Part shown: in pieces, positions 8,012-34,842 of the stretch
How the letters are laid out: every line of letters starts with the position of its first letter
Numbering within the stretch: position 1 is the first letter of the stretch
Program-made: the position numbers and the translations under genes
DNA from: Candidatus Uhrbacteria bacterium
Lineage (GTDB): Bacteria > Patescibacteriota > Patescibacteriia > UBA9934 > GWF2-40-263
Direction of reading: 5' to 3'
Length of the DNA: 36,323 bases
Assembly (NCBI GenBank): GCA_016205975.1
Contig: JACQSK010000021.1
Span: 1 to 36,323, forward strand
The notes under the pieces: generated by a model
Seen by the model: the letters and a program-made list of their open reading frames with translations, nothing else
Databases searched by the model: none
Told to the model about the DNA's origin: nothing

Positions 8012-8638
8012 ATGGGGCAGTTGCAGGAGTTCGACAGGCAAGTCATCGATCAGTTGCGCCAGGCTCAGGTGATCGAGGACATGAGCCGGGAGGGGCTGGA
8101 CCTTTCCCGTGGAGTGATCGTCATCCGTTGTCCGGACGGTGACCAGATGCTCGACCGCATCGAGCACGACCGCCAGACCGCGATTGCGGCCGGGGTTACG
8201 CCTCGCATCCATCTCATCACGCACCACGGCGGATGTATGGTCGTCGCTCCCGACTCGTCGTTCTATCCGGGCCGCGGTATCGACGAGTACGTCCTCGAGC
8301 AGATCCGCGAGGCCGAAGCGCTCAAGGAGATCCACTTGGTCTTGGCCGAGATCCACGCTCCTTGCGGCAAGGCCGCGAGCCTCGGGCTCACGCTGGTGCA
8401 CCAGATCGTGCTGCAGATGGCGGCCAAGCCGCGCATCAAGGCCGTCGACCCGACGAACAAGGTGCTCTGCCGCATCCACGTCGACTTCGCCGACGGTCGC
8501 AAGCGTACCTATTTCATCAGCCGCGCCAAATGGCTCGCGTTCTGGGACGCCCAGGGCCGTGCCCTGTGGGGACATCTCTTCGAGCCCCTCATGATGGAAA
8601 CATGCGATCCCAGCGACACACAGCGGGCTCCCAACTGA
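8012..8638 (+). CDS. Uncharacterised protein with C-x-D (RCPDGD) and H-x-x-C (HHGGC, HAPCGKA) motifs; possible divergent beta-CA-like fold
   Basis: Canonical SD (aaggag, 8 nt before ATG); own promoter; motifs parallel to the preceding gene. Confidence 0.5.
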   Translation: MGQLQEFDRQVIDQLRQAQVIEDMSREGLDLSRGVIVIRCPDGDQMLDRIEHDRQTAIAAGVTPRIHLITHHGGCMVVAPDSSFYPGRGIDEYVLEQIREAEALKEIHLVLAEIHAPCGKAASLGLTLVHQIVLQMAAKPRIKAVDPTNKVLCRIHVDFADGRKRTYFISRAKWLAFWDAQGRALWGHLFEPLMMETCDPSDTQRAPN

Positions 8639-8660
8639 GAGTGAACCTCATCGTCCACGA

Positions 8661-8695
8661 ACCGCCCTTCGACAAGCTCAGGGCGGTATTTTATT
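8661..8695 (+). terminator. Terminator-like hairpin built on TTCGACAAGCTCAGG
   Basis: ACCGCCCT-tcgacaagctc-AGGGCGGT followed by attttattt. Confidence 0.65.
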
Positions 8696-8697
8696 TG

Positions 8698-8706
8698 TGC
8701 TATGAT
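8698..8706 (+). promoter_or_regulatory. Extended -10 (TGcTATGAT) for the helicase gene
   Basis: 9 nt between the -10 and ATG 8716. Confidence 0.6.
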
Positions 8707-8715
8707 AGCTCAGCT

Positions 8716-11646
8716 ATGGTCGATGATTTGCTTGCAAAACTCAACGAAGAACAGCGACAGGCCGTAACGCACGTGGACGGCCCGCTCATGATTGTGGCTG
8801 GCGCGGGGACGGGAAAGACGACCGTCATCACGCACCGTATTGCCTGGCTCATCGAGGCGGGACACGCCAAGCCCGATGAGATCCTCGCGCTCACGTTCAC
8901 CAACAAGGCGGCAGGGGAGATGGAGGAACGCGTGGATCGCTTGCTCCCGTATGGCTATGTTGATCTGCAGATCTCGACGTTCCATGTGTTTGCCGAGAAG
9001 CTCTTGCGCGAGTACGGCGTGGAGATCGGCTTGTCGCGCGACTTTAGACTGTTGAGCGAACTGGACGCGTGGCTGCTTGCGCGCCAGCACTTTGATCGGT
9101 TTGCGCTCAACTATTACCGGCCGCTGGGCAATCCTACCAAGTACATCCGCTCGCTCTTGACGCACTTCTCTCGCGCGAAAGATGTCGGCGTGGATCCGGA
9201 TCAGTATGCCGCCGCGATCGAGTCACGCTTTGCCGATCTGGATTCCGCTCAAGCCGATGAGTCGACGACCTCCGAGCTCAAGCGTTTGCGCGAGCTCGCG
9301 GGCGCCTACCGGACGTACCAACAGATTTTGCTGGAACACGACTGTTTGGATTTCGGCGACCTCATGCTCTACACGTTGAAGCTCTTGCGCGAGCGGCCGC
9401 GCGTGCGTGATGCCGTCCGGGCGCGCTACGCCTATGTTCTGGTGGACGAGTTCCAGGACACCAACGACGCGCAGTATGAAATCGTGCGGGAAATTGCCGC
9501 GCCCAGGAATAATCTGACGGTCGTGGGGGACGATGACCAATGTGTCTATAAGTTCCGTGGCGCTTCGCTCGCGAACATCCTTCGGTTCGAGACGGACTAT
9601 CCGGACGCGCGCCATGTGGTTCTGACGAGCAACTATCGGTCGGCCCAGGGGATCTTGGATCGTGCCTATGACTTCATCCAGCACAACAACCCCAACCGCC
9701 TTGAGGTGACGTCCGCGCGAGCGCTGTCGAAGAAATTGCGGTCCAGTCAGGATCACGCGGCGTCCATCGAACATCTCCATGCGCTGACGAGTGAGGAGGA
9801 AGTCGCTCTCGTCGTGCGGAAGATTTTGGCGCTGAAGGCGGAGCAACCTGAGGTTGAGTGGAGCGACTTCGCGATTTTGGTGCGTTCCAACGCCGCAGGC
9901 GCGGATTTTGCGCAGGCGCTCGAGCGCCACCAGGTGCCGTATCAGTTCCTCGCGCTCTCGGGGCTCTATACCAAGCCCGCCGTGCTAGACCTGCTCTCGT
10001 ATCTGCGCGTGGTGGATCACGTGTTTGACAGCCCAAGCCTGTACCGGTTGCTCATCTCGCCCATCGTGGGCGTGAGCGAGCGCGGCGTGATGGAGCTTAA
10101 CCGTCTGGCCCAGCGCAAAGGCAAGTCGCTGTTTGAGGCCTGTGAGATGGCGCAGGGATTCTCTGCGCTTGACCCGGCGGACGCCCAGGCCGTGCATCAG
10201 CTCTTGGATCAGATCCGGACGTTCCAGCGCCACGCCCGCACGCGCAAGGTCGGCGAGCTCTTCGTCCTGATCGCCAAGGAGTCCGGGTATCTTGAGCACG
10301 TCAATACGCTTGAGGAACGGCAGAAGATCGAGATGTTCAGCTTCTTGTCTCAGTTCTACCAGCGCTTGAAAGCGTTTGAGCGGTCGAGCGAGCATTCTGT
10401 CCTGCACCATTTTTTGAAGGAGTTTGCCCATGAGAGGGACGCGGGGGAAGAGGGATCGTTGTCTGTGGATCTGGAGTCGGGACCTGATGTCGTGCGTATC
10501 ATGACGATTCATGCGGCCAAGGGGCTTGAGTTTCGCTATGTCTTCGTCGTGAATCTCGTGGCACAGAAGTTTCCGACACGCGCGATGCGTGATGCCATCG
10601 AACTGCCGGACGGATTGGGTTCCCCCGCACCGCAGGAAGGCGACGCGCATGTAGAGGAAGAGCGACGGCTGTTTTATGTGGCTATGACTCGCGCCAAGGA
10701 GGGGCTGTACTTTACCTCCGCGGAGGATTACGGCGGCGCCCGCAAGCGGAAGATCTCGCCGTTCCTGCATGAGCTTGGGTACACGCAGCCAGAGAGCCCC
10801 GCATCGATCCTGGAGCTCTTGGACGAAGACCGGAACGCCCCTGCCGCATCTGCGTCGAGCCTCAAGATGCCGGTTCCCAAACAGTTTTCTTTCACGCAGC
10901 TTGCCGCTTTCAGGACGTGTCCGTTGCAGTACAAGTTTGCCCATGTGCTCAAGGTACCGGTTATGGGCAAGTGGACTTTCTCCTACGGCAAGACCATGCA
11001 CAACACGCTCCAGAGGTTTTTTACCCTTTGGTTGGAGCGTAGCGGTCGCCAGCAGACCAGCCTCTTTTCCGCGCCTGAAACGCCTACGCCGGGTGATCTG
11101 CCGGTGAGCCTTGAGGAACTCCTGCAGGCGTACCAAGACGGTTGGCAGGATGACTGGTATTTGAACGATGTCCAGCGTGAGGAATATCGCGAGAACGGGA
11201 AGGCGTCCTTGAAACAACTTTTTGCTCAATACAAAGCCTCGCCGCCGACCCCGTTGTATATCGAGCAAGGGTTCACCATGAAAATCGGCAGCATCGTCTT
11301 GAAAGGACGGATCGACCGCATGGATGCGTGTGAAGACGGTGTTGAGATTATTGACTACAAGACCGGCTCGCCCAAGACGGAACTCGCGCTCGAAGACAAG
11401 GAACAGCTCCTCCTCTATCAGCTTGCGTGCGTGCAAGTGCTCGGGCTCAAGCCCAAACGTCTGACGTATCATTACCTCGCAGACAACTCCAAGCTCTCAT
11501 TCCTGGGAACACAAAAACAGCTAGACGATTTGGAGGAGTCCCTTGTCGCGCGTGTTCAGGGTATTCTCACCTCGAGCTTCGAGGCGACGCCGGGCTTCCA
11601 TTGTCGGTACTGTGACTTTGCGGATATCTGTGAGTTTCGCGGATAG
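8716..11646 (+). CDS. UvrD/PcrA-like superfamily I helicase with C-terminal PD-(D/E)XK (Cas4/AddB-like) Fe-S nuclease domain
   Basis: VAGAGTGKTTVITHRIAWL Walker A, VDEFQDTN, GDDDQCVYKFRGA, YVAMTRAKEGLYFT; C-terminal GRIDRMDACEDGVEIIDYKTG and FRTCP...FHCRYCDFADIC. Confidence 0.9.
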   Translation: MVDDLLAKLNEEQRQAVTHVDGPLMIVAGAGTGKTTVITHRIAWLIEAGHAKPDEILALTFTNKAAGEMEERVDRLLPYGYVDLQISTFHVFAEKLLREYGVEIGLSRDFRLLSELDAWLLARQHFDRFALNYYRPLGNPTKYIRSLLTHFSRAKDVGVDPDQYAAAIESRFADLDSAQADESTTSELKRLRELAGAYRTYQQILLEHDCLDFGDLMLYTLKLLRERPRVRDAVRARYAYVLVDEFQDTNDAQYEIVREIAAPRNNLTVVGDDDQCVYKFRGASLANILRFETDYPDARHVVLTSNYRSAQGILDRAYDFIQHNNPNRLEVTSARALSKKLRSSQDHAASIEHLHALTSEEEVALVVRKILALKAEQPEVEWSDFAILVRSNAAGADFAQALERHQVPYQFLALSGLYTKPAVLDLLSYLRVVDHVFDSPSLYRLLISPIVGVSERGVMELNRLAQRKGKSLFEACEMAQGFSALDPADAQAVHQLLDQIRTFQRHARTRKVGELFVLIAKESGYLEHVNTLEERQKIEMFSFLSQFYQRLKAFERSSEHSVLHHFLKEFAHERDAGEEGSLSVDLESGPDVVRIMTIHAAKGLEFRYVFVVNLVAQKFPTRAMRDAIELPDGLGSPAPQEGDAHVEEERRLFYVAMTRAKEGLYFTSAEDYGGARKRKISPFLHELGYTQPESPASILELLDEDRNAPAASASSLKMPVPKQFSFTQLAAFRTCPLQYKFAHVLKVPVMGKWTFSYGKTMHNTLQRFFTLWLERSGRQQTSLFSAPETPTPGDLPVSLEELLQAYQDGWQDDWYLNDVQREEYRENGKASLKQLFAQYKASPPTPLYIEQGFTMKIGSIVLKGRIDRMDACEDGVEIIDYKTGSPKTELALEDKEQLLLYQLACVQVLGLKPKRLTYHYLADNSKLSFLGTQKQLDDLEESLVARVQGILTSSFEATPGFHCRYCDFADICEFRG

Positions 11647-11809: not shown

Positions 11810-12136
11810 ATGGCCATCTCTTCACTGCGTGACCTCCTCTCTGGTTCCCTGAAGCGCGCCGGCGTTCTCCGTAGCGTGCGCGCGTCTATGATTGTGGAGG
11901 CGGCCAACCGTATGATTCCAGCCTACCTTCCTGCATTTCGTTCTCGAGATGTGCAGGCCGTCAGTTTTCAGAATGGGACACTGCGCCTGTTGGCCCGCAA
12001 CGCTCCTGCACGCCATCTCATGAAAAATCACGAAGCGGATCTCCTCACAAAACTCCACGTCGAGTTTCCCACAGCCCCCATCGAACGCATCCAGCTCATC
12101 GTCTCTCACGAACCTGTTCGTTATGAGCTTTCGTAA
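11810..12136 (+). CDS. DUF721/DciA-like protein
   Basis: Small protein with ...VSFQNGTLRLLARNAPARHLMKNHEADLLTKLHVEFPTAPIERIQLIV, DUF721-like pattern. Confidence 0.6.
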   Translation: MAISSLRDLLSGSLKRAGVLRSVRASMIVEAANRMIPAYLPAFRSRDVQAVSFQNGTLRLLARNAPARHLMKNHEADLLTKLHVEFPTAPIERIQLIVSHEPVRYELS

Positions 12137-30787: not shown

Positions 30788-31585
30788 ATGCTCGTCTTTG
30801 CCGCGATCACACCCCACACGCCGCTCCTCATTCCCACGATCGGAAAGGAGAACCTGAAGGCCATGACGAGCAGCGTACAAGCGCTTGAGCGTCTGGCTGA
30901 GGATTTTTATCTTGCGCGGCCGGACACCGTGATCGTTCTCTCGAGCCACGCGACGGTGTACAGGCATGCTTTTGCGATCAACTTGCACGACGAGTATCTG
31001 ATTGACTTTAAGGACTTCGGCGACCTGCGTACGTTCAAAACCGTGAAGCCTGACCTGTTGACGATCACGCAAATCCAGCGCGCCTTGCGTGATGCCCGCG
31101 TGCCCTTCACGCTGGACTCCGACGCATCGCTGGATTACGGCACGGGCGTCCCGCTTACCTTCCTGCTCGCGCACTCGTCGGATGTTCAGCTCGTTCCGCT
31201 GTCGCACTCCGGCTGCGCGCCACGCGAGCATGTGCGCATGGGACACACGCTCAAGGACGTCATCGACGCAAGCCCCAAGCGCATCGCCGTCATCGCTTCA
31301 GGCGACCTGTCCCACGCGCTCACCTCTGCTTCGCCTCTGGGTTTCCGTCCAGAGGGCCAGGCGTACGACGAACGCGTGCTTGAGGCGGTGAAGAACCAGT
31401 CGCTCTCCACGCTTTTGCATACGCCGGAGCGTGTGCTCACGAGCGCGGGCCAGTGCCTGCAGGAACAGCTTCTGATCCTCATGGGCGTCTTGGAAAAAAG
31501 AAACACGCGACCGGAAGTGCTGAGCTATGAGTCTCCGTTTGGCGTGGGATATCTGGTCGCGGAGTTTCATCTGACGGACCTATGA
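30788..31585 (+). CDS. LigB/MEMO1 superfamily protein (class III extradiol dioxygenase-like / AmmeMemoRadiSam B-like)
   Basis: ITPHTPLLIPTIG, VIVLSSH, DYGTGVPLTFLLAH, VIASGDLSHALT, FGVGYLVAEF. Confidence 0.75.
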   Translation: MLVFAAITPHTPLLIPTIGKENLKAMTSSVQALERLAEDFYLARPDTVIVLSSHATVYRHAFAINLHDEYLIDFKDFGDLRTFKTVKPDLLTITQIQRALRDARVPFTLDSDASLDYGTGVPLTFLLAHSSDVQLVPLSHSGCAPREHVRMGHTLKDVIDASPKRIAVIASGDLSHALTSASPLGFRPEGQAYDERVLEAVKNQSLSTLLHTPERVLTSAGQCLQEQLLILMGVLEKRNTRPEVLSYESPFGVGYLVAEFHLTDL

Positions 31586-33408
31586 TCGCCGAGGTGTATC
31601 CGTTCAAGCGCACGAGCCGCGCCTTGTCCGCGTTTGATTATCTTGTGCCCGAGATGCTCTCGGTGCGCCGCGGAATGTTCGTCGAGATCCCGTATCGCCA
31701 ATCTCGGCTCGTGGGCGTGGTCAAACGCGTCAAGGACCATCCCGTGCGCGGCATCGCGTTGAAGTCGATCAGCCGCGTCCGGGAGGACACGGCCTTGAGG
31801 GAGGACGAGCTCTCTTTTTTTGAATCGCTCAGCCGCGAGCTGTTCCAGTCCACCGCGACCGTGCTGCACCACGCCTTCCCGCAGATTCCAAAAACAAAAG
31901 AGACGAAAACCGCGTCCGCATCTGTGCCCGCTCTGCCGCTCACGCTTCCCAAAAGCGATGCACAGACGGCTGAGCGGCTGGTGAGACTCATGCGTGAACG
32001 ATCCAAGGCGTTCATTCAGACGCCTGACATCCGACGCGCCGCCGCGCTCATTCTGGGATACGCACACAGCACCGAGAACCAAAAACTCCTCATCCTCGCG
32101 CCCACGCTGCGCGATGTGGAACTGATGCGCTCGCGGCTCGCGGGGATCAACCCGTGGATCATCACAGGCGAGGAATCAGCACTCGAACGGTTCCGTCGCT
32201 GGAAGGCTTTCCGCGAGGCGCCCGAGGGCGTGCTCATGGGAACACGCACCGCGGGCCTCATGATCGACGCCTCGGTCACGACGATTTTTTTGGTGCGCGC
32301 GGGTGAGAGTGGCCACAAACAGGAAGACCGCAATCCACGCTATGACATGCGTGAACTGGTCTGGAACCTGCACGAGTCGTTTTCTGCAAACCTGTTTTGT
32401 CTGGATGTCGTCCCTCGCGCGCAAACGCTCGTACGCTTTGCCGCCTCCGAAATCCTGTCTTGGCCCGCCGCCCTGGATGAGCGTGTCATCGACATTCACA
32501 AAGACGCCGACCGCCGCGCGCGCACCATTTCCTGGGAGGCGGAACAAGCCCTCCTGAGCGCGCTGCCTCGCGGGCCTGTGCTGTGCGTACACAACCAAAA
32601 GGGCTCGGCGCGCCTCATCGTGTGTCGCGCGTGCGGGGTTCGGCCGACGTGCCCCCACTGCCAAACTTCCTTGTCCGCGTTTACCCACACGCTCGCGTGC
32701 GCTCGATGCCATCACAAGGAACCCCTGCGGCTCTCCTGCGCGCAATGTCGAAGCACGAACCTCGCGCGCATCGGCCCCGGCAATCAGGAAGTCGCGCGCG
32801 AACTCAAACAGCTCTTCCCACTCGCGACCGTCGCGATCGTAGATAAAGACCACCCAGGGCAAGGCCACGCGGATATCCTGGTCGCCACGTCGTTTTATCT
32901 GGAAGCCTGTTACGATCCCTTCCGTCCGGAACGGTTCGCCGCGGTCCTGCTCGTGGACGTAGACGCGCCGCTCTACAACGCACAGCCGTCCGCGATCGAG
33001 TCCCTGACGCGCAACCTGTGGCAGTGGCGCGCGCTGGCCTACACCTCGCGCGCGCCGTTTCTCGTCCAGACGACAAATCCCGCGCTGGTTCAAACGGCAC
33101 TTGAGGATCCCGACGCGCTCTTGCGCGAGGACGTGCGATCGCGCGAAAGCTATCACCTGCCGCCCTTCACCCGCTGGTACCGCGTGACACTGAAGGAAGA
33201 AGAACCTCGCAAGGCGCAGATCGCGCTCTCAGAACTCAAGGATCGCCTCGCCCTGTTACCGGGCGTCATCTTCGGCGCAACAACATCTCGTCCAGGTGCG
33301 GACGCGATCCTGGAGCTCGGCATTCCCGCCCAGGGCGTAAGCGCGCTCCAGCCAGTCTTCTCATCCCTCCCCGATCGCTATATTATTGACACAGACCTTT
33401 TTTCCTGA
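31582..33408 (+). CDS. priA: PriA-like primosomal protein N' with degenerate ATPase motifs
   Basis: Zinc region VCRACGVRPTCPHCQTSL...CARCHHKEPLRLSCAQCRS; LMGTRTAGLM and PRYDMREL match PriA, but no GxGKT or DEEH. Confidence 0.85.
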   Translation: MIAEVYPFKRTSRALSAFDYLVPEMLSVRRGMFVEIPYRQSRLVGVVKRVKDHPVRGIALKSISRVREDTALREDELSFFESLSRELFQSTATVLHHAFPQIPKTKETKTASASVPALPLTLPKSDAQTAERLVRLMRERSKAFIQTPDIRRAAALILGYAHSTENQKLLILAPTLRDVELMRSRLAGINPWIITGEESALERFRRWKAFREAPEGVLMGTRTAGLMIDASVTTIFLVRAGESGHKQEDRNPRYDMRELVWNLHESFSANLFCLDVVPRAQTLVRFAASEILSWPAALDERVIDIHKDADRRARTISWEAEQALLSALPRGPVLCVHNQKGSARLIVCRACGVRPTCPHCQTSLSAFTHTLACARCHHKEPLRLSCAQCRSTNLARIGPGNQEVARELKQLFPLATVAIVDKDHPGQGHADILVATSFYLEACYDPFRPERFAAVLLVDVDAPLYNAQPSAIESLTRNLWQWRALAYTSRAPFLVQTTNPALVQTALEDPDALLREDVRSRESYHLPPFTRWYRVTLKEEEPRKAQIALSELKDRLALLPGVIFGATTSRPGADAILELGIPAQGVSALQPVFSSLPDRYIIDTDLFS

Positions 33409-33422: not shown

Positions 33423-33893
33423 ATGAACCTCCGAGCTGTCCTCACGCATCCAAACGATCGCCTTCGCCAAAAAGCGAAGGAAGTTCCGGTCGGCGAGATT
33501 GCCTCCAAGGAGATCCAGCAAGTGATTGATGATCTCGTGGACACGATGGGTGTTGAAAACGGCGTCGGTCTGGCCGCGCCGCAGATCGGCGCGCACCGGC
33601 GCATCATCGTGACGGACGTGGATGGCGTCCTGGTGCTCGTGAACCCGGAGATCATCGGGAAATCCCTGCGCAAGATTGATTTTGAGGAAGGCTGTCTGTC
33701 CGTGCCCGGCGTGTACGGTCTGGTGCGCCGCCACCGCGAGGTGAAGGTGCGCGCGCTCAATCGCCACGGCGAACCCATTACGATCAAAGCTTCCGGACTC
33801 CTGGCGATCGTGCTCCAACATGAGACAGATCACCTGGACGGGATCCTTTTTACCGACAAGGTCGTACGCTACACGAGCCCGCCACGGATGTAA
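33423..33893 (+). CDS. def: Peptide deformylase
   Basis: GVGLAAPQIG, EGCLSVPG, HETDH motifs. Confidence 0.97.
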   Translation: MNLRAVLTHPNDRLRQKAKEVPVGEIASKEIQQVIDDLVDTMGVENGVGLAAPQIGAHRRIIVTDVDGVLVLVNPEIIGKSLRKIDFEEGCLSVPGVYGLVRRHREVKVRALNRHGEPITIKASGLLAIVLQHETDHLDGILFTDKVVRYTSPPRM

Positions 33894-33894
33894 T

Positions 33895-34842
33895 ATGAGA
33901 ATCATCTTTTTTGGCACGCCTGCTTTCTCCGTCCCGTTTTTGCAAACCCTCATCGACGACCCAGACATGGAGGTCGTCGCTGTTGTGTCCCAGGGTGATA
34001 AAGCCGCTGGCCGCGGCGGTACGGTCCAGCCCTCCACGATCAAGACGCTCGCGCTCGCGCACAGCATTCCTGTCCTCACGCCCGCATCGCTCAAGACGGA
34101 CATGAGCATCACAGAACAGCTCACAGACCTACGCGCGGACGCGTTCGTGGTCGTCGCGTATGGAAAGCTGATCCCCAAGACCATCCTCGATCTTGCGCCT
34201 CTGGGCGTGGTGAACGTCCATCCGTCGCTTTTGCCACGCCACCGTGGGCCTTCTCCGATGCAGTGGGCGATTGCTGCTGGCGATGCCATAAGCGGCGTAA
34301 CCATCATGCGGCTTGACGAAGGCATGGACACGGGGCCGGTCCTTTCGTTTGAAACCATCGAGCTCGATGCGGAGGAAACGTACACGACCCTCGCGCGCAA
34401 GGTGCAGGCCGTTGGCGCGCCGCTGTTGCTCTCAACGCTCAAGCGACACGGACGCAGCGAGATCGTGCCCCTGCGTCAGGACGACTCCAAAGCGACACTC
34501 ACGCGTCTGCTCGAGCGCAAAGACGGCCATGCGGACTGGACCAAACCGATGGCCGAGATCGAGCGTCTCGCACGCGCCTACAACGAGTGGCCAGGGCTCT
34601 GGTGCCTGTGGACGCGCGGCGGGCAGGAGCCGCAGAGGCTGAAACTGACAACGATCCGTCCCGCAGATTTTGTTGCCGACGTCTCGCCCGGGACGGTCAC
34701 GATCAAGGATGACCGATTGTTCGTTGACTGTCAGGATGGGACGCTGGAGATCCTCGAGCTCCAACCAGAGGGCAAATCAAAAATGCCCGCGAGGGCATTC
34801 ATTCAGGGGAACCGGGAAATCCAAAACGCACAGCTTGCCTGA
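33895..34842 (+). CDS. fmt: Methionyl-tRNA formyltransferase
   Basis: MRIIFFGTPAFSVPFLQTL; VVNVHPSLLPRHRGPSPMQWAI; follows def. Confidence 0.96.
   Translation: MRIIFFGTPAFSVPFLQTLIDDPDMEVVAVVSQGDKAAGRGGTVQPSTIKTLALAHSIPVLTPASLKTDMSITEQLTDLRADAFVVVAYGKLIPKTILDLAPLGVVNVHPSLLPRHRGPSPMQWAIAAGDAISGVTIMRLDEGMDTGPVLSFETIELDAEETYTTLARKVQAVGAPLLLSTLKRHGRSEIVPLRQDDSKATLTRLLERKDGHADWTKPMAEIERLARAYNEWPGLWCLWTRGGQEPQRLKLTTIRPADFVADVSPGTVTIKDDRLFVDCQDGTLEILELQPEGKSKMPARAFIQGNREIQNAQLA

Follow-up and report, generated by a model that had tools for sequence, protein, structure and literature searches.

Does PriA need its helicase activity, or is it enough that it recognises abandoned forks and supports loading of the replicative helicase? 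The question is of long standing: E. coli tolerates an ATPase-dead PriA in the laboratory, yet the motor is conserved in most bacteria. It is raised again by a gene in the window (the whole stretch of 36,323 nucleotides analysed here), which belongs to a tiny uncultured Candidatus Uhrbacteria (Patescibacteria) with a genome of 938,558 bases that is 94.3% complete. A sequence-only reading had taken the gene for a PriA homolog with both Walker motifs destroyed, and had proposed an independent or parallel conversion to a DnaB-loading scaffold of the kind reported in Deinococcus radiodurans.

Identity of the gene and state of its ATPase motifs

The open reading frame at 31582-33408 (+) starts with ATG and encodes 608 amino acids, with the frame intact throughout. 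The protein matches the PriA profiles NCBIfam NF004066 (1.1e-34), NF004070 (4.4e-34) and TIGR00595 (4e-31), all under the curated cut-offs. For TIGR00595 the score is 108 bits against a cut-off of 230 bits; since this profile starts at Walker A and most of it covers the motor region, we read the low score as motor loss rather than as non-membership. The Pfam profile for the 3′-end-binding domain, PriA_3primeBD (PF17764), is matched above its cut-off, and sequence comparison with PDB PriA chains gives 3e-23.

For an AlphaFold2 model, the window protein was combined with 15 orthologs on named contigs, almost all of them from Candidatus Uhrbacteria or Parcubacteria; mean pLDDT is 87 and pTM 0.84. 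The model's nine best matches among PDB structures are all PriA (E-values 2.3e-36 to 5.4e-29, TM-scores 0.63-0.73), after which matches drop to generic helicases at 5e-9. By profile and model alike, the PriA fold (3′-end-binding domain or 3′BD, two lobes, zinc insert and C-terminal domain) is present despite the loss of motifs.

The neighbourhood is that of a priA gene. Directly upstream and overlapping its start lies a LigB/Memo-like gene (30788..31585, +); directly downstream is def, for peptide deformylase (33423..33893, +), followed by fmt, for methionyl-tRNA formyltransferase (33820..34842, +), whose real start is probably within the open reading frame at MRIIFFGTP. The order memo/LigB-priA-def-fmt is found in 16 of 16 named relatives. 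Because def also follows 13 of the 30 motor-intact priA genes examined, it ties the motor-less gene to canonical priA. The closest named relatives are Candidatus Uhrbacteria, and the same protein on independent named Uhrbacteria contigs rules out an assembly artefact. Genome-wide searches, in which the window protein and E. coli PriA served as queries, returned no second PriA, canonical or otherwise, the sole other match being a stretch within uvrB. Profiles, PDB chains, fold match and synteny thus all uphold the call of a PriA homolog, and we conclude that the window gene is a true priA ortholog and the sole one found in the genome.

In alignment with E. coli PriA, the Walker A sequence GVTGSGKT lies opposite FIQTPDIRRAAA (32008..32043, +; about residues 143-154), with K230 and T231 replaced by R152 and A153. 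Where a P-loop would be, the model has a strand (142-146) separated by just three residues from a helix (150-163). At the former Walker B, TIFLVRAG (32281..32304, +; about residues 234-241), VRAG takes the place of DEEH and V238 and R239 that of D320 and E321. The damage goes further than the sequence-only reading had it: the losses of Walker A and Walker B that it described stand, and the alignment adds motif III, where GSAT is replaced by LDVV (32401..32412, +; residues 274-277), motif V, where TQMLAKG is replaced by TSFYLEA (TSFYLE at 32887..32904, +; residues 436-441), and motif VI, where GRAGR is replaced by ALAYT (33031..33045, +; residues 484-488) and the arginine finger is gone. The intact P-loop that would have spoken against such a reading was looked for in the alignment and not found. 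Neither Walker A, nor Walker B, nor the motif VI arginine finger, the marks of an active PriA helicase, is present in the window protein, which from its sequence is predicted to be incapable of ATP binding, hydrolysis and unwinding.

Retained domains and residues

The 3′BD (31582..31893, +; residues 1-104) retains F18-D19-Y20, equivalent to E. coli F16-D17-Y18, as well as K61. In E. coli, Asp17 is crucial for recognition of the 3′ end (PMC4129139). Its equivalent is present in 46 of 49 PriAs from the window's order and in 35 of 39 from the rest of the class; motor-intact patescibacterial PriAs mostly have Thr or Ser at this position. After the 3′BD, the winged-helix domain (E. coli residues 115-191) is absent, replaced by a low-confidence linker (31894..31950, +; residues 105-123) that shows as an alignment gap and has a pLDDT of about 60 at residues 101-120. 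The winged helix is largely missing from three motor-intact patescibacterial PriAs too, so its deletion is an event separate from motor loss.

The loop after motif II, which corresponds to the PRYHARD region of E. coli, is kept as NPRYDMR (32332..32352, +; residues 251-257), with PRYxxR at residues 252-257 and N251, P252, R253, D255 and R257 invariant in 27 relatives. All eight zinc cysteines (C348, C351, C357, C360, C373, C376, C386 and C389) are present in the cysteine-rich region (32623..32748, +; residues 348-389), and a C-terminal domain (33154..33405, +; about residues 525-608) is recognised by secondary structure and by the PriA fold match. The sequence-only reading had noted the surviving zinc region and flanking motifs, as the eight cysteines and PRYxxR bear out. 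The residues which we take to be the SSB pocket of K. pneumoniae PriA, W82, Y86 and R697, do not match E. coli numbering.

The structure of E. coli PriA on a fork shows the 3′BD gripping the 3′ end of the nascent leading strand and a loop of lobe 1 acting as a wedge at the junction; lobe 2, the zinc domain and the C-terminal domain together form a pore for lagging-strand single-stranded DNA (PMC10175261). Judged by alignment, the parts that contact the fork there correspond to those kept in the window protein. Conservation has shifted within the protein: the ratio of 3′BD identity to lobe-1 identity is 0.70-0.88 in five motor-intact sets, where conservation is higher in the motor lobes than in the 3′BD, as against 0.91-1.21 in eight degenerate sets. 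In degenerate PriAs, then, conservation moves from the motor lobes towards the 3′BD, and in the window's family the fork 3′-end-binding domain with Asp17 is the most conserved domain.

Motor loss across Patescibacteria

The P-loop is gone in all PriAs read from relatives in the same order, and its replacement, aligned with orthologs from related genomes as the sequence-only reading had suggested, is common to the whole order, which puts it far beyond chance. At the level of the class, a TIGR00595 search of 286 genomes gave, among the matches listed, none that reaches Walker A: these begin at profile position 8 or later, as against positions 1-3 for the motor-intact PriAs of the phylum. Among 31 class loci read directly, none has GKT. 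Elsewhere in Patescibacteria canonical PriA is common.

We aligned 180 alignable PriAs, chosen to cover the range so that the proportions are not frequencies. Walker A is kept in 57, with the Walker B DE in 57 of 57 and motif VI in 56 of 57. The other 123 have motif VI in none, DE in 32 and all eight zinc cysteines in 102, a pattern which suggests that motifs I and VI would decay first and motif II later. Two motor-less PriAs, L049 and L108, retain 38-50% identity to intact relatives, and by their sequences they look like recent motor losses. The clade that includes them, drawn from family f74 and from what is probably a contaminant contig of genome G001, also holds three PriAs with an intact motor and only four of the eight zinc cysteines.

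An rpoB tree was used to count the losses (77 genomes, 41 of them motor-less; open reading frames picked by homology; genome G022 within its own family). It is a quick search with one gene and one site-heterogeneous model, and the motor-state groups had been defined before this tree, which comes from a different gene. Motor state changes 11 times on it, nine of these forced by well-supported branches, and if the motor is ancestral there are at least 11 losses under every rooting tried. Placing the 41 motor-less genomes in a single clade costs 1,412 log-likelihood units (AU test, p=1.7e-49), which rules out one ancient loss for all Patescibacteria. The window's class forms one loss (14 genomes sampled, support 100), and motor loss looks ancestral to it.

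The losses fall inside Patescibacteria, since many lineages of the phylum still have a canonical PriA. As the class forms one old loss within the phylum, that of the window is independent of Deinococcus. The proposal of an independent conversion therefore stands, whereas the possibility of a one-off does not. In the literature on PriA in Patescibacteria/CPR (most subscription journals being outside the scope of the search) we found no report of complete motor loss that is repeated at the scale of a phylum. A PriA pseudohelicase is already known as a kind, and it is the repeated and complete loss that would be new.

Degeneration takes other forms as well. In five motor-less PriAs, two of them from family f3 and two from the window's own family, the zinc region is wholly or half lost. 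Four genomes of family f22, rated 80-85% complete, carry C-terminal halves of PriA as separate frames of about 312-324 amino acids; in some of them an in-frame TAA is read through, which would fit a split gene, a pseudogene or an unusual code. Of 41 genomes chosen because earlier matches were weak or missing, 36 gave no match with a profile built from degenerate PriAs, several of them complete (about 100%) or in a single contig. PriA may be absent altogether from several patescibacterial families; restart may be of little need there, and parts of the phylum may be losing the pathway or have replaced it. In practical terms, searches with TIGR00595 miss or under-score PriA across a large part of Patescibacteria.

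Possible roles of a motor-less PriA

Experiments in other bacteria show what PriA can do without its motor. The PriA of D. radiodurans neither hydrolyses ATP nor unwinds DNA, yet it binds forks and contacts DnaB, and in E. coli the ATPase mutants of PriA still build primosomes and support viability (PMC4504706). PriA-PriB restart in E. coli in vivo needs no ATPase or helicase activity (PMC10175261), while the helicase is reported as required for the PriA-PriC-DnaT route (PMC13220808).

The PriA of Deinococcus-Thermus is the closest parallel, having non-functional Walker A and B motifs and conserved DNA-binding and zinc domains (PMC4504706); it is a proposed restart scaffold contacting DnaB in bacteria of the DciA type. 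Like it, the window protein has lost its ATPase motifs and kept its DNA-binding parts in a gene that is intact and selected. It differs in lacking motifs I, II, III, V and VI and the winged helix, whereas Walker A is by published description still recognisable in Deinococcus (K to R in GKT), and also in belonging to a different phylum, where intact PriAs persist in sister lineages. With canonical E. coli PriA (TIGR00595) it shares the fold, the 3′BD with Asp17, the zinc cysteines and the C-terminal domain, and with intact patescibacterial priA the def-fmt synteny; it departs from the canonical protein in the missing ATPase motifs and winged helix and in its score far under the family cut-off. 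Actinobacterial PriA (the PRK14873 group) is annotated as having no detectable helicase motifs. It belongs to another phylum, and its likeness to the window protein is drawn from that annotation and from a match to NF011453 at 2e-28.

We think it probable, and hold this with good confidence, that the window protein is a motor-less fork-recognition scaffold that helps to reload DnaB, probably with DciA, by a conversion that Patescibacteria underwent at least 11 times. A DnaB-loading role is a reasonable one by analogy with Deinococcus, taken together with the retained 3′BD, Asp17, loop after motif II, zinc domain and full fold. The protein would bind abandoned forks: its 3′BD would hold the 3′ end of the nascent leading strand, its lobe-1 loop would lie at the junction, and lagging-strand single-stranded DNA would be held by the zinc domain, lobe 2 and the C-terminal domain. 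It would then recruit or position DnaB, which is present in the genome, with DciA as the probable loader by homology. The DciA-like gene noted in the sequence-only reading is indeed in the window (11831..12094, +), as a borderline candidate partner (PF05258, 24.0 bits against a cut-off of 24); the profile also matches in Thermus and Deinobacterium controls.

Several points weaken the scaffold reading. In some degenerate lineages the zinc domain, through which E. coli PriA takes part in helicase loading (PMC10175261), is gone as well; many patescibacterial genomes have no detectable PriA, so restart may be weakly needed; and the DciA match lies at its threshold. The first two lend some weight to the idea that PriA has left replication restart for another structural role, as a passive roadblock guarding forks or 3′ ends or in a function linked to the adjoining def and fmt, given that the motor and, in some relatives, the zinc domain are dispensable. 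We consider this unlikely. The linkage to def and fmt occurs with intact priA too and is therefore older than motor loss, and the domain conserved most in the window's family is the one that recognises fork 3′ ends through Asp17.

It is very improbable that the window protein remains an ATPase with an unconventional nucleotide site. The lobe-1 fold is kept and, dead P-loop included, is the slowest-changing region within the genus (dN 0.20). However, nothing is left of the P-loop, the Mg-binding DE, motifs III and V or the arginine finger, and a change of K230 to arginine, the residue found at position 152 here, by itself abolishes the ATPase of E. coli PriA (PMC4504706).

A small genome and several relatives with no detectable PriA might suggest, with slighter probability still, a neutral relic decaying under genome reduction, its product en route to loss. 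Against this, the gene has been kept across the class since an ancient loss, no stops were found inside the PriA matches of relatives, and dN/dS within the genus is about 0.13 (dN 0.31; dS above 2 and thus saturated, so that the ratio is only approximate), with lobe 1 the most constrained part. The gene is under purifying selection, and the intact frames together with this ratio rule out a pseudogene.

Least probable of all is a subfunctionalised paralog beside a helicase-competent PriA elsewhere, for which a genome only 94% complete leaves room: 60 relatives searched have one PriA each, apart from one extra full-length match (L049, whose small contig belongs to a genome that is 9% contaminated), and, as above, no PriA reaches Walker A among the matches listed for the class.

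For the motor-less scaffold, repeated loss of the motor with the fold and DNA-recognition parts kept suggests that the essential job of PriA is to mark and rebuild forks, not to unwind DNA. On balance, we also favour a broader picture, held less firmly, in which the motor was discarded at least 11 times and the scaffold kept, constraint moved towards the 3′BD, and PriA went missing from further lineages. This would form a series from helicase to pseudohelicase to loss, with restart or helicase loading in minimal DciA-type bacteria running on a motor-less PriA. Many independent losses beside intact sisters in one phylum amount to a natural experiment: Patescibacteria allow tests of which genes or genome features track motor loss, of which residues are still selected without the motor, and of whether one motor-less PriA loads DnaB with DciA.

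Another helicase would have to unwind the nascent lagging strand, if that step is needed at all. Directly upstream of the DciA-like gene, at 8233-11643 (+), the window encodes a UvrD/AddA-like helicase of 1137 amino acids with a C-terminal PD-(D/E)XK nuclease, which from its sequence could be a candidate active helicase for forks.
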